Shown piece after piece: positions 21,404 through 56,458 of a DNA stretch of 64,000 nt. Both the position numbers and the translations under genes were made by a program. Where the stretch lies: positions 23,529 through 87,528 of IMG/VR virus record IMGVR_UViG_3300010397_000043; one strand, written 5' to 3'. The notes beneath the pieces were generated by a model. It was not told the DNA's origin, ran no database searches, and was given only the letters and a program-made list of their open reading frames with translations. Source of the stretch: a virus. Position 1 is the stretch's first letter. The number at the start of each line of letters is the position of its first letter.

Positions 21404-21799
21404 ATGGATATCGAGCGGCTTCAAGAACTGCGGCGCGTCATCGTCGAAACGCCCGACGAGCGTGTTGACCTCAATGGCTGGGCGCGGTCGTGCGGCACCA
21501 TCGCCTGCGTGCTCGGCTGGGCCTGCAAACACCCGCCGTTCGTGGCCGAGGGACTGCACCTGTTCGAGGACGAGGGCGCGTACACGCCTTGCTTCGGCAA
21601 TTTCATCAACTACGAAGCGGGCGGGGAGTTCTTCCGCCTGTCGTACCCCGACGCCGAATTCCTGTTTGGGCCGCGTTCGTGGGGCGACGCCACGGGCCGC
21701 GCCGACATCACCGACAAGCAATTGGCCCTGCAGCGCATCGATGAACTGCTGGGCACGCGCCGCAGCCCGTACACCGATTGCTTTCCCTGCGACGACTGA
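21404..21799 (+). CDS. Tandem paralogue 1 (CGTIACxLGWAC family)
   Basis: 131 residues, CTGGAGG before ATG. Family plan seen in all eight genes: an N-terminal ERL..LR.VI..TPDE..D helix, a central CGTIACVLGWAC with invariant Cys and GW, then G..F....G..FF.L....A..LF and a C-terminal D.DKQ.AL.R.D.LL helix. The C..C spacing could bind metal. Resembles phage hypothetical proteins with a CGTxACxxGW motif; function unknown. This copy is the most divergent (KHPPFVAEGL instead of xVPEFQAAGL) and ends in a CFPCDD tail. Confidence 0.75.
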   Translation: MDIERLQELRRVIVETPDERVDLNGWARSCGTIACVLGWACKHPPFVAEGLHLFEDEGAYTPCFGNFINYEAGGEFFRLSYPDAEFLFGPRSWGDATGRADITDKQLALQRIDELLGTRRSPYTDCFPCDD

Positions 21800-21804
21800 A
21801 CCCC

Positions 21805-21819
21805 ATTACCACTGGTAAT
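21805..21819. promoter_or_regulatory. Palindrome site 4 (ATTACCACTGGTAAT)
   Basis: Exact copy, six bases after the stop of paralogue 1, within the context GAACCCC-ATTACC shared with sites 5 and 6. Confidence 0.75.
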
Positions 21820-21839
21820 TCACAATCTGGAGCACAACC

Positions 21840-22274
21840 ATGCACCTCGACCGACTCAAGACCCTGCGCGACCTGATGGCGGCGACGCCCGACGACAAGA
21901 TCGACATGAACTACTGGCGGCGCGAACCCGGCGCCATCTTCGACCCCAACACTCTCAATGCACCCACGTGCGGCACCGTGGCCTGCATGCTGGGCTGGGC
22001 GTGCATGAACCCTGAGTTCCAGACCTTGGGCCTGCACTTTGAGCACGACAGCGTTTCGTTGTACCCGGAGTACAACGGCAGGTCTTCTGCCGGGGCCGGT
22101 GCTGAGTTCTTCGATCTAGAACCCAAGATCAGTCGTCTGCTGTTCGACGCGGCTTCTCGTCAGGAACTGGCGGAGCGCGGCTCGCACAAGGCTGTCGCAC
22201 TGGCCCGGCTCGACGAACTGCTCGAAACGGGCACGCTCCACGACCCCGACTACTACGATCCCAGTGGCGACTGA
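21840..22274 (+). CDS. Tandem paralogue 2
   Basis: 144 residues. HLDRLKTLRDLMAATPDD start, TCGTVACMLGWACMNPEF centre, GAEFFDLEPKISRLLF, then KAVALARLDELLETG. It has an insertion before the CGT motif (FDPNTLNAP) and lacks the D.TDKQ segment of other copies. Confidence 0.75.
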   Translation: MHLDRLKTLRDLMAATPDDKIDMNYWRREPGAIFDPNTLNAPTCGTVACMLGWACMNPEFQTLGLHFEHDSVSLYPEYNGRSSAGAGAEFFDLEPKISRLLFDAASRQELAERGSHKAVALARLDELLETGTLHDPDYYDPSGD

Positions 22275-22279
22275 ACCCC

Positions 22280-22294
22280 ATTACCACTGGTAAT
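22280..22294. promoter_or_regulatory. Palindrome site 5 (ATTACCACTGGTAAT)
   Basis: Same placement as site 4: directly after the stop of paralogue 2 and before the start of paralogue 3. Confidence 0.75.
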
Positions 22295-22319
22295 CGCACT
22301 CCTAAACCACGAGGCACCC

Positions 22320-22757
22320 ATGAACATCGAACGACTCAAGACCCTGCGCGACGTGCTGGCCGCGACGCCCGACAAGATGGTCAACCTGGACGGCTGGCGA
22401 TACGACGAAGGGGAAATCTTTTGCGCAACTGGCGACCCCTCCAAGCCCGCGTGCGGCACCATCGCCTGCGTGCTCGGCTGGGCCTGCATGGTGCCTGAAT
22501 TTCAGGCAGCAGGACTCAAGCTGATCATCCACGACGGCGAGTTCATCCCGACGTACCAGAAGTACTACCTTCGCTTTCGTGCCGGCGAGGAGTTCTTTGA
22601 ACTGGAGACTGACACCGCACGCAAGCTGTTCCGCGCCTCGGCGACGTGCGTCGAGCCAAAGCTCCACAAGCAGATCGCTCTGGCCCGGCTCGACTGGCTG
22701 ATCGAGCACGGCGATTTCGACGGGTACAACGAACTCAACCTGGAGCTGCAATCATGA
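22320..22757 (+). CDS. Tandem paralogue 3
   Basis: 145 residues. NIERLKTLRDVLAATPDK, CGTIACVLGWACMVPEFQAA, GEEFFELETDTARKLF, KQIALARLDWLIEHG. Its stop overlaps the start of paralogue 4 (ATGA), so the two are translationally coupled. Confidence 0.75.
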   Translation: MNIERLKTLRDVLAATPDKMVNLDGWRYDEGEIFCATGDPSKPACGTIACVLGWACMVPEFQAAGLKLIIHDGEFIPTYQKYYLRFRAGEEFFELETDTARKLFRASATCVEPKLHKQIALARLDWLIEHGDFDGYNELNLELQS

Positions 22758-23191
22758 ACATCGAACGACTGCAAACCCTGCGCGACGTGATCGCAGCCAC
22801 ACCCGACGAAGCCGTGGAGCTCGACCGCTGGCAGCGAGAAAGCCCTATGTGCGGCACCATCGCCTGCGTTCTCGGCTGGGCCTGCGCGGTGCCCGAGTTC
22901 AAGGCCGAGGGCCTGCACTTGGCCCCCACCAGCACCTTTGACAAAGCGCCGTGGTACGACGGGGCGTGCGAGTACCTCGCGGGCGCCAAGTTCTTCGACA
23001 TGGAGTACTACGACGCGAGGAAGCTGTTCTCGTACCGTGGCGTGCTGTGGGACGATGACGGCGAGGGGTACGGGCATGCCGACGACCGAACGGACAAGCA
23101 AGTCGCGCTTGACCGGCTTGACCACATGCTCAAGCACGGCACCATGGCCGGGTGGGATCAAGATTCTGAATGCTACGTGCCCCAGGAGTAA
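22754..23191 (+). CDS. Tandem paralogue 4
   Basis: 145 residues. NIERLQTLRDVIAATPDEAV, MCGTIACVLGWACAVPEFKA, AKFFDMEYYDARKLF, DDRTDKQVALDRLDHMLKHG. A typical member. Confidence 0.75.
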   Translation: MNIERLQTLRDVIAATPDEAVELDRWQRESPMCGTIACVLGWACAVPEFKAEGLHLAPTSTFDKAPWYDGACEYLAGAKFFDMEYYDARKLFSYRGVLWDDDGEGYGHADDRTDKQVALDRLDHMLKHGTMAGWDQDSECYVPQE

Positions 23192-23194
23192 ACC

Positions 23195-23668
23195 ATGCAC
23201 ATCGAACGACTCAAGACTCTGCGCGACGTGATTGCAGCGACGCCCGACGAAGCCGTCAACATGGGCACGTGGCGGTGCGACCCTGGCGGCTGGGCTAAGG
23301 ACCCTGCCAAGCCCGAGTGCGGGACCATCGCCTGCATGCTCGGCTGGGCCTGCATGGTGCCTGAGTTTCAGGCAGCGGGGCTTAAGTTCCTGGCGTTCGC
23401 GAACGTGCCAGAAGGCTTTCGGCACCTGGACTTTATTCCGTCGTATGAAGATGATATTTCCTACAGTGCGGGCGAAGCGTTCTTCGAGCTTGACCCTGGC
23501 GTCGGGTACGCACTGTTCAAGACCGCTGAAGCCGGGCTCAACCAAAAGGCCGTCGCCTTGGGCCGGCTCGACTACCTGTTGAAGGAAGGACACCTCGGCG
23601 GGTACTTCGACCCGCAGCCGCCGGCTGACCCCGACGATGACCAGACCTGGATCGACGACTGGAGCTGA
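23195..23668 (+). CDS. Tandem paralogue 5
   Basis: 157 residues, the longest copy. HIERLKTLRDVIAATPDEAV, CGTIACMLGWACMVPEFQAA, GEAFFELDPGVGYALF, KAVALGRLDYLLKEG. It has an acidic C-terminal extension (ADPDDDQTWIDDWS). Confidence 0.75.
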   Translation: MHIERLKTLRDVIAATPDEAVNMGTWRCDPGGWAKDPAKPECGTIACMLGWACMVPEFQAAGLKFLAFANVPEGFRHLDFIPSYEDDISYSAGEAFFELDPGVGYALFKTAEAGLNQKAVALGRLDYLLKEGHLGGYFDPQPPADPDDDQTWIDDWS

Positions 23669-23702
23669 ACTCGCCAACCCAACGGACGACTTGGAGCCGA
23701 CC

Positions 23703-24104
23703 ATGAACATCGAACGACTCAAGACCCTGCGCGACGTGATCGCCACTACGCCAAACGAGAACATCGACCTATCGTATTTCATCAAACCGCACGTCTGTGG
23801 CACGATCTGCTGCACGCTCGGCTGGGCCTGCGAAGTGCCTGAATTTCAGGCAGAAGGTTTGCGCATGGGCGTGGACCCTGAGTATACAGTCCTATCCCCT
23901 GTGTACGAGGGCCACGTCGGCTTTGAAGCTGCTGTTGCCTTTTTCGAGTTGAGCGGCCTGCACGACGCGTATCGCCTGTTCGACGCTGCCGCGCCGCACA
24001 CCGGCAATAACCACAAGGCGCTCGCCCTGGCGCGGCTCGATTACGCCATCGCGCACGGCTCGATGAACGGGTACACGAACTCCGAAGACTGGGCTGTGGA
24101 GTAA
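23703..24104 (+). CDS. Tandem paralogue 6
   Basis: 133 residues. NIERLKTLRDVIATTPNENI, VCGTICCTLGWACEVPEFQA (A to C change inside the motif, adding a third Cys), AVAFFELSGLHDAYRLF, KALALARLDYAIAHG. Confidence 0.75.
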   Translation: MNIERLKTLRDVIATTPNENIDLSYFIKPHVCGTICCTLGWACEVPEFQAEGLRMGVDPEYTVLSPVYEGHVGFEAAVAFFELSGLHDAYRLFDAAAPHTGNNHKALALARLDYAIAHGSMNGYTNSEDWAVE

Positions 24105-24108
24105 TACC

Positions 24109-24543
24109 ATGAATACCGAACGACTCAAGACCCTGCGCGACGTGATTGCCGCAACACCAGATGACTACGTGGACCTCTCGTGGTGGCAGCAGTCCGGCGA
24201 CTGCGGCACCATCGCCTGCATGCTCGGCTGGGCCTGCGAAGTGCCTGAATTTCAGGCAGCGGGTTTGCGCATGGAGCACTACCCGGGCTACGGCGACGCA
24301 TTCCCTACGCTCGACCAGAAATTCGGCTACGAGGCCGGCGCGGCGTTCTTTGGGCTGGACTACGCAGACTCGGCGATGCTGTTTTGCGGGCGGGGCTGCA
24401 GGTTCAGCACCGAGAATGACGACCGCACGGACAAACAAGTCGCGCTCGACCGGCTCGACCATTTGCTCACGTATGGCAACTTCACTGCCATGCGGTTCGC
24501 CAGTCGTCCCACCACCAAGCCCCGTTACTGGAGCCAGCCATGA
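24109..24543 (+). CDS. Tandem paralogue 7
   Basis: 144 residues. NTERLKTLRDVIAATPDDYV, DCGTIACMLGWACEVPEFQA, GAAFFGLDYADSAMLF, DDRTDKQVALDRLDHLLTYG. Stop overlaps the start of paralogue 8. Confidence 0.75.
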   Translation: MNTERLKTLRDVIAATPDDYVDLSWWQQSGDCGTIACMLGWACEVPEFQAAGLRMEHYPGYGDAFPTLDQKFGYEAGAAFFGLDYADSAMLFCGRGCRFSTENDDRTDKQVALDRLDHLLTYGNFTAMRFASRPTTKPRYWSQP

Positions 24544-24965
24544 ACATCGAACGACTCAAGACCCTGCGCGACGTCATCGCAGCGACACCCGACGAGGTGG
24601 TGGACCTGGACCGCTGGCAGTTGACCAAAGACTGCGGCACCATCGCCTGCATTCTTGGCTGGGCCTGCGAAGTGCCTGAGTTTCAGGCAGCAGGGCTCAA
24701 GCTGGTCCCCCACCAAGGCAACCCAGCGCGTTGGGTGCCCGAGTATGACCTGATGTACCGTGAGTTCCGGGCGGGTGCCAAGTTTTTCGGCCTGTCGTCG
24801 GACACTGCACGTCTGCTATTCGGCCAGCGGGCGGCGGACCTCGATACCGAAAACAAAAGGACTGGCGACGTGCGCACAGATCGGGAAGTTGCATTGGACC
24901 GGCTCGACCATTTGATCAAGCACGGCAACTTCAACGCGCTGTTGCCGGAGTGGCTGCACGAGTAA
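24540..24965 (+). CDS. Tandem paralogue 8
   Basis: 141 residues. NIERLKTLRDVIAATPDEVV, DCGTIACILGWACEVPEFQA, GAKFFGLSSDTARLLF, VRTDREVALDRLDHLIKHG. Closest to paralogue 7 over the central motif. End of the array. Confidence 0.75.
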   Translation: MNIERLKTLRDVIAATPDEVVDLDRWQLTKDCGTIACILGWACEVPEFQAAGLKLVPHQGNPARWVPEYDLMYREFRAGAKFFGLSSDTARLLFGQRAADLDTENKRTGDVRTDREVALDRLDHLIKHGNFNALLPEWLHE

Positions 24966-38130: not shown

Positions 38131-38210
38131 AACGGCCACATAGCTCAATCTGGTAGAGCGTCGGTCTCCAAAACCGAAGGTTGGGGGTTCAAGTCCCTCT
38201 GTGGTCGCCA
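38131..38210 (+). tRNA. tRNA-Trp (anticodon CCA)
   Basis: Acceptor GGCCACA pairs with TGTGGTC (one G-U), TA, D-stem GCTC/GAGC, anticodon arm TCGGT-CTCCAAA-ACCGA, T-arm with TTCAAGT loop, discriminator G and an encoded CCA. There are four bases rather than one between the D-stem and anticodon stem (GTCG), giving 80 nt, which is odd and may be a 3-base duplication. Confidence 0.85.
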
Positions 38211-56382: not shown

Positions 56383-56458
56383 GCCCCTGTAGCTCAATTG
56401 GCAGAGCAGCGGATTTCAAATCCGAGGGTTGCAGGTTCGAGACCTGTCGGGGGCGCCA
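56383..56458 (+). tRNA. tRNA with UCA anticodon (UGA decoding, Trp- or suppressor-type)
   Basis: Complete 76-nt cloverleaf: acceptor GCCCCTG with CGGGGGC, D-stem GCTC/GAGC, anticodon arm GCGGA-TTTCAAA-TCCGA, T-loop TTCGAGA, discriminator G, encoded CCA. Bases 34-36 are TCA (56416-56418), which reads UGA. The G discriminator fits tryptophanyl-tRNA synthetase. Position 33 is the normal U. The G27-A43 pair is a mismatch, as in the interrupted tRNA at 38.2 kb. Confidence 0.88.

Follow-up and report, generated by a model that had tools for sequence, protein, structure and literature searches.

Eight tandem genes and their genomic setting

The window analyzed here is a stretch of 64,000 nucleotides belonging to an 87,528-base virus record that carries portal, DNA polymerase, helicase and thymidylate synthase genes. 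Between positions 21404 and 24965, eight open reading frames lie in tandem on the plus strand, each encoding 131-157 amino acids:

21404..21799, plus strand: copy 1, 131 aa, the most diverged copy
21840..22274, plus strand: copy 2, 144 aa, phrog_889 profile match at E=1.3e-4
22320..22757, plus strand: copy 3, 145 aa, ATGA overlap with copy 4, phrog_889 match at E=1.6e-5
22754..23191, plus strand: copy 4, 145 aa
23195..23668, plus strand: copy 5, 157 aa, phrog_889 match at E=2e-4
23703..24104, plus strand: copy 6, 133 aa, core reading CGTICC
24109..24543, plus strand: copy 7, 144 aa, ATGA overlap with copy 8, phrog_889 match at E=8.7e-4
24540..24965, plus strand: copy 8, 141 aa, used for structure prediction

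All frames are intact and a purine-rich ribosome-binding site lies just 5' of every one (8/8). Pairs 3/4 and 7/8, described as overlapping in the initial annotation, do so through a 4-nt ATGA at both junctions. That annotation had also reported eight consecutive genes with common start, core and end motifs, and this was borne out by the alignment of the eight proteins, in which the invariant columns span the whole length: M1, R5, L6, T16, P17, C45-G46-T47, C50 and L52-G53-W54-A55-C56 (copy-3 numbering) are identical in 8/8, as are, among others, F92-F93, L103-F104, A120-L121, R123 and D125. A C-G-T-x-x-C core followed by a GWA-like motif is present in the array copies, whose amino acid identity to copy 3 is 45-58%. 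The eight genes are genuine paralogues; the possibility of an assembly artefact, which had been raised beforehand, is refuted because the C-terminal halves are only about 49% identical in DNA.

The array, which may be expressed early, opens a run of small plus-strand genes just past a divergent gene whose product we take, from reading its sequence, to be a primase-helicase. A promoter of its own had been ascribed to the array; this is unsupported, as a consensus scan found no sigma-70-like promoter for it. In viral_contigs, the divergent upstream gene has distant relatives only and a gene downstream of the array has none. Elsewhere in the window, a tRNA-Trp lies at 38134-38210 and a tRNA with anticodon TCA at 56383-56458; the latter, which was called tRNA-SeC by ARAGORN and at 76 nt is short for a tRNA-SeC, may read UGA.

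Palindromes had been noted after copies 1 and 2. Both are present; they are not specific to the array. The 15-bp palindrome ATTACCNNNGGTAAT has 13 exact sites across the 87.5-kb record, whereas its reversed control pattern has none, and these two are among the 13:

21805..21819: palindrome ATTACCACTGGTAAT after copy 1, exact site
22280..22294: palindrome ATTACCACTGGTAAT after copy 2, exact site
5088, 18022, 21042, 21805, 22280, 26578, 32067, 42410, 46778, 50278, 50311: sites of the 15-bp palindrome in the window
60970: the 15-bp palindrome with one mismatch

The sites are mostly intergenic, and the palindrome looks like a putative operator, or a site bound by some other protein, in a regulon that spans the genome.

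A widespread family in an unusually large array

The family of the array proteins is not new: it is PHROG 889, which is widespread in phages of many hosts and listed with unknown function, in agreement with the earlier statement that no function had been described. Copies 2, 3, 5, 7 and 8 matched the phrog_889 profile below E=0.001 and copies 1 (E=0.29), 4 (E=0.0048) and 6 (E=0.19) did so more weakly, while a wider family profile recovered all eight copies at E of about 1e-31 or lower; PHROG 889 was matched by 59/98 aligned family members. No significant match to the array or the family was found in Pfam, NCBIfam or PADLOC, the last of which holds defence systems, and literature searches on the family name or motif returned nothing relevant.

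Family members were collected from at least 122 loci through a DNA-pattern scan of viral contigs and other searches. In the family alignment the Cys motif is seemingly universal, but the search pattern that supplied most members requires it; those recovered without the pattern, among them Henry, Firecracker and several second copies, keep a C-x-x-x-x-C core with small variations. Neighbor clustering across the family loci revealed no recurrent partner beyond PHROG 18067 and none pointing to defence or counter-defence.

In Acinetobacter phage Ac42 (L009:3001-3711), a PHROG 889-like region is fused to a NUDIX domain. The N-terminal region of this NUDIX hydrolase fusion, Ac42p217, belongs to the same family as the array, whereas the array copies are without the NUDIX domain (no Pfam NUDIX match in any copy). 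Relatives at L010:4983-6032 and L238:2483-2998 were deposited as 'putative ADP-ribose pyrophosphatase'. Two Acinetobacter homologues bearing this name, both from phage fJoAci01, were tested and had no NUDIX match, and the annotation was probably carried over from the Ac42 fusion. The BFVD name 'RDF protein' for a matching protein of phage Henry was given no weight, the matching Henry gene being hypothetical in GenBank.

Whole-record searches of 99 other records gave one match in 76, two in 15, three in seven and four in one, counts that are lower bounds in a selected set, as a motif was used to choose the sample and many of the records may be fragmentary; in two of the multi-match records (G051 and G069) the matches occupy fewer ORFs than the matches counted. 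With eight, the window record exceeds all others of this sample, and its array is firmly an outlier in copy number. In the tree, copies 2-8 formed one clade (support 0.85) and copy 1 grouped weakly with a protein of a phage-like Cupriavidus plasmid (support 0.79). Because copy 1 is nearest to this plasmid and the DNA polymerase of the phage has its nearest relative in a Rhodoferax phage, a host among the Burkholderiales is suggested. The tandem sets of several other phages likewise clustered by genome, and expansion has therefore happened repeatedly.

A conserved scaffold with variable loops

The AlphaFold2 model of copy 8, built with 97 relatives, reached a pLDDT of 85.9 and a pTM of 0.82. 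With this model, no Foldseek hit in the PDB improved on E=5.6 and VIA-align found no chain with a Z of 2 or more, and the convincing structural matches were to uncharacterised phage proteins only. A PDB sequence search also returned diaminopimelate epimerase, a weak match (E=0.11) local to the Cys motif that was rejected.

Mean pairwise identity among the eight reached 0.88 for the CGT core and 0.78 for helix 1. It fell to 0.12-0.37, with length differences, in the hairpin, in the tail and in the two loops that follow helix 1 and precede the last helix. The array proteins thus have a conserved scaffold with loops of variable length. Furthermore, they are acidic, with net charges of -5 to -14, and more so than the products of other window genes (P=0.0007). 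Acidity is not shared by the whole family, in which a considerable minority of proteins are neutral or basic (75th percentile +2.9 per 140 aa).

Selection and shared DNA tracts within the array

Near-identical DNA had been described at the 5' ends and around the VPEFQA codons, and exact stretches of 37-39 nt were indeed found in these regions and in the core. Copies 6 and 7 share an exact 38 nt across the core and VPEFQA, and two further stretches are candidate recombination tracts:

22318..22355, plus strand: 38-nt 5' tract of copy 3, exact in copy 6, with 37 nt also in copy 8
21489..21527, plus strand: 39-nt core tract of copy 1, exact in copy 3

At identical residues, the same codon was used in the 5' block at a frequency of 0.68, where the codon usage of the phage would give 0.42, and in the CGT core at 0.84, where it would give 0.48. 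Synonymous identity was concentrated in codons 2-13 and the core, a clustering that was significant by permutation on a sum-of-squares statistic (P=0.0004) and not significant by maximum run length among the window copies (P=0.13). The conserved tracts could reflect selection on DNA or mRNA instead of recombination. Judged from pairwise dN/dS values of 0.18-0.75 (NG86), purifying selection acts on the N-terminal half. For the C-terminal half, the median was about 0.8 for dN and about 1.0 for dS (NG86), and positive selection is not demonstrable because synonymous sites are near saturation.

Recombination between neighboring copies in other phages

At the same Acinetobacter phage locus, TCUP2199 has two diverged copies and Mystique has one. 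The Mystique gene combines the upstream region and 5' end of TCUP2199 copy 1 with the body of copy 2, and the switch lies inside 31 identical nt. Mycobacteriophage Ukulele also has two copies, gp90 and gp91; compared with it, the single gene of Henry has the start of gp90 joined to the body of gp91 inside 27 identical nt, and that of Pumpkin has the body of gp90 and the last part of gp91, joined in 15 identical nt near the C-terminus. Goku (L239:316-894) carries gp90 with a 40-codon remnant of gp91, left by a 321-nt in-frame deletion whose join has no shared tract. As read from these genomes, neighboring diverged copies recombine to chimeras in two unrelated phage groups, and copy number is altered in the process. 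The two copies have diverged by about half, so the simplest order of events would make the pair the older state and the single copy a deletion product. Megablast with the Ukulele locus matched 144 mycobacteriophage records, a few of which were read in detail, and at least 80% of the two-copy query is present in 72/144.

Across 18 neighboring pairs from other phages, same-codon use was not raised at the 5' end (81/157 in the first 16 codons versus 440/879 in the rest, P=0.73). The 5' DNA homogeneity of the window array is not general in the family.

Origin and possible role of the array

The explanation that we favor, with a probability of about 40% as a whole, is that a common small acidic phage protein underwent a tandem expansion of exceptional size to form the array, and that its copies act on the host. 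That the expansion was driven by recombination is very probable, and the window array would have been built by the same process as in other phages; as its engine, recombination is well supported there and only indirectly in the window. Homologous recombination between short conserved tracts (5' end, core) would add, remove and reassort copies, and the phage would keep a constant scaffold while varying the loops and C-terminal segments. Each copy could bind a host target as an accessory protein, most likely in counter-defence or host takeover, and the set of variants would then cover a set of targets. A host-directed role such as counter-defence is our best guess, a tentative one that we would still rank above its rivals. 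It is more doubtful that the tandem paralogues, with their constant scaffold and recombining loops, form a variable repertoire that jointly counters a range of host targets, with turnover between close relatives. The earlier proposal that the expansion was selected for diversity fits these data, as the family is usually single-copy, 8/8 frames are intact, the N-terminal half shows purifying selection and the variation sits in loops. Inhibition of variable host defences, suggested there as an example, is plausible.

Other readings were considered. The copies might be subunits of a hetero-oligomer, or a multi-part factor of phage metabolism (e.g. redox- or nucleotide-linked), specialised as partners of one another. 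The family-wide conservation of the C-x-T-x-x-C motif, which is kept in several copies outside the pattern selection, and the NUDIX fusion of Ac42 are in line with this reading, which is unlikely, however, given that most phages manage with one copy and that the fusion is known from one phage only and its NUDIX domain is absent from the window copies. Still less probable are near-neutral duplicates with little function that are kept by recombination: several close relatives of two-copy phages do have a single copy, but the eight intact frames, the invariant motifs and an N-terminal dN/dS below 1 argue against this reading.

Dosage, in which extra copies would raise the amount of one protein activity, had been offered as an alternative to diversity. 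In its favor, every array copy retains its ribosome-binding site and reading frame, and the amplification of tifA in T4 is a case of dosage (PMC9391042). However, dosage alone would favor near-identical copies and fits poorly with paralogues that have divergent loops and have diverged to about half identity (some 45-58% to copy 3), so that we hold it to be improbable to a greater degree than neutral retention. The least probable reading, a special case of the host-directed one, is that the proteins are acidic DNA mimics which block host DNA-binding proteins such as restriction enzymes; their net charge, exceeding in acidity that of other window genes, would agree with mimicry, whereas the neutral or basic members of the family and the lack of a structural match to any solved protein speak against it.

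PHROG 889 is common and has no assigned function, and the eight-copy array together with its natural one- and two-copy relatives provides a ready comparison for finding its role. Moreover, the chimeras indicate that phages reassort diverged neighboring genes via tracts as short as 15-31 nt, and small unknown genes can therefore be shuffled in the manner of a repertoire.

Comparison with known systems

A second tandem family, PHROG 18067 (WVxALRSGxYxQ...GFCCLGVxCD, unknown function), resembles PHROG 889 in several respects: its members are small proteins of phages whose Cys motif lies where helix 2 begins, their tandem arrays reach eight copies within about 8 kb, and in some phages they lie in mixed arrays with PHROG 889; one such array, at L012:5422-8258, has five PHROG 18067 and two PHROG 889 genes, and another is at L154. 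The Cys motif of PHROG 18067 is, however, unlike that of PHROG 889, and profile-profile comparison of the two families (hhalign) gave no significant match (probability 3% and 0.9%). The two AlphaFold2 models appear to arrange their helices and hairpin in a similar order, and their common Foldseek hits are weak.

In phage T4, the counter-defence gene tifA is segmentally amplified by recombination between short homologous tracts (PMC9391042), and in T6 the homing endonuclease SegB drives the amplification of anti-defence loci (PMC13096335). The array resembles the tifA case in having tandem copies via recombination at short homologous tracts (PMC9391042), if the same route made it. The T4 and T6 precedents are fresh repeats that act through dosage, whereas the near-identical head-to-tail copies of a fresh amplification were not found here: the copies of T4 are fresh and selected for dosage, while those of the array, at 45-58% identity to copy 3, are old and diverged. 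PHROG 889 elsewhere is usually present in one copy per record, in contrast to eight in this phage. If the array did arise by the T4 route, its copies, being diverged, would therefore have been kept as variants and not for their amount.
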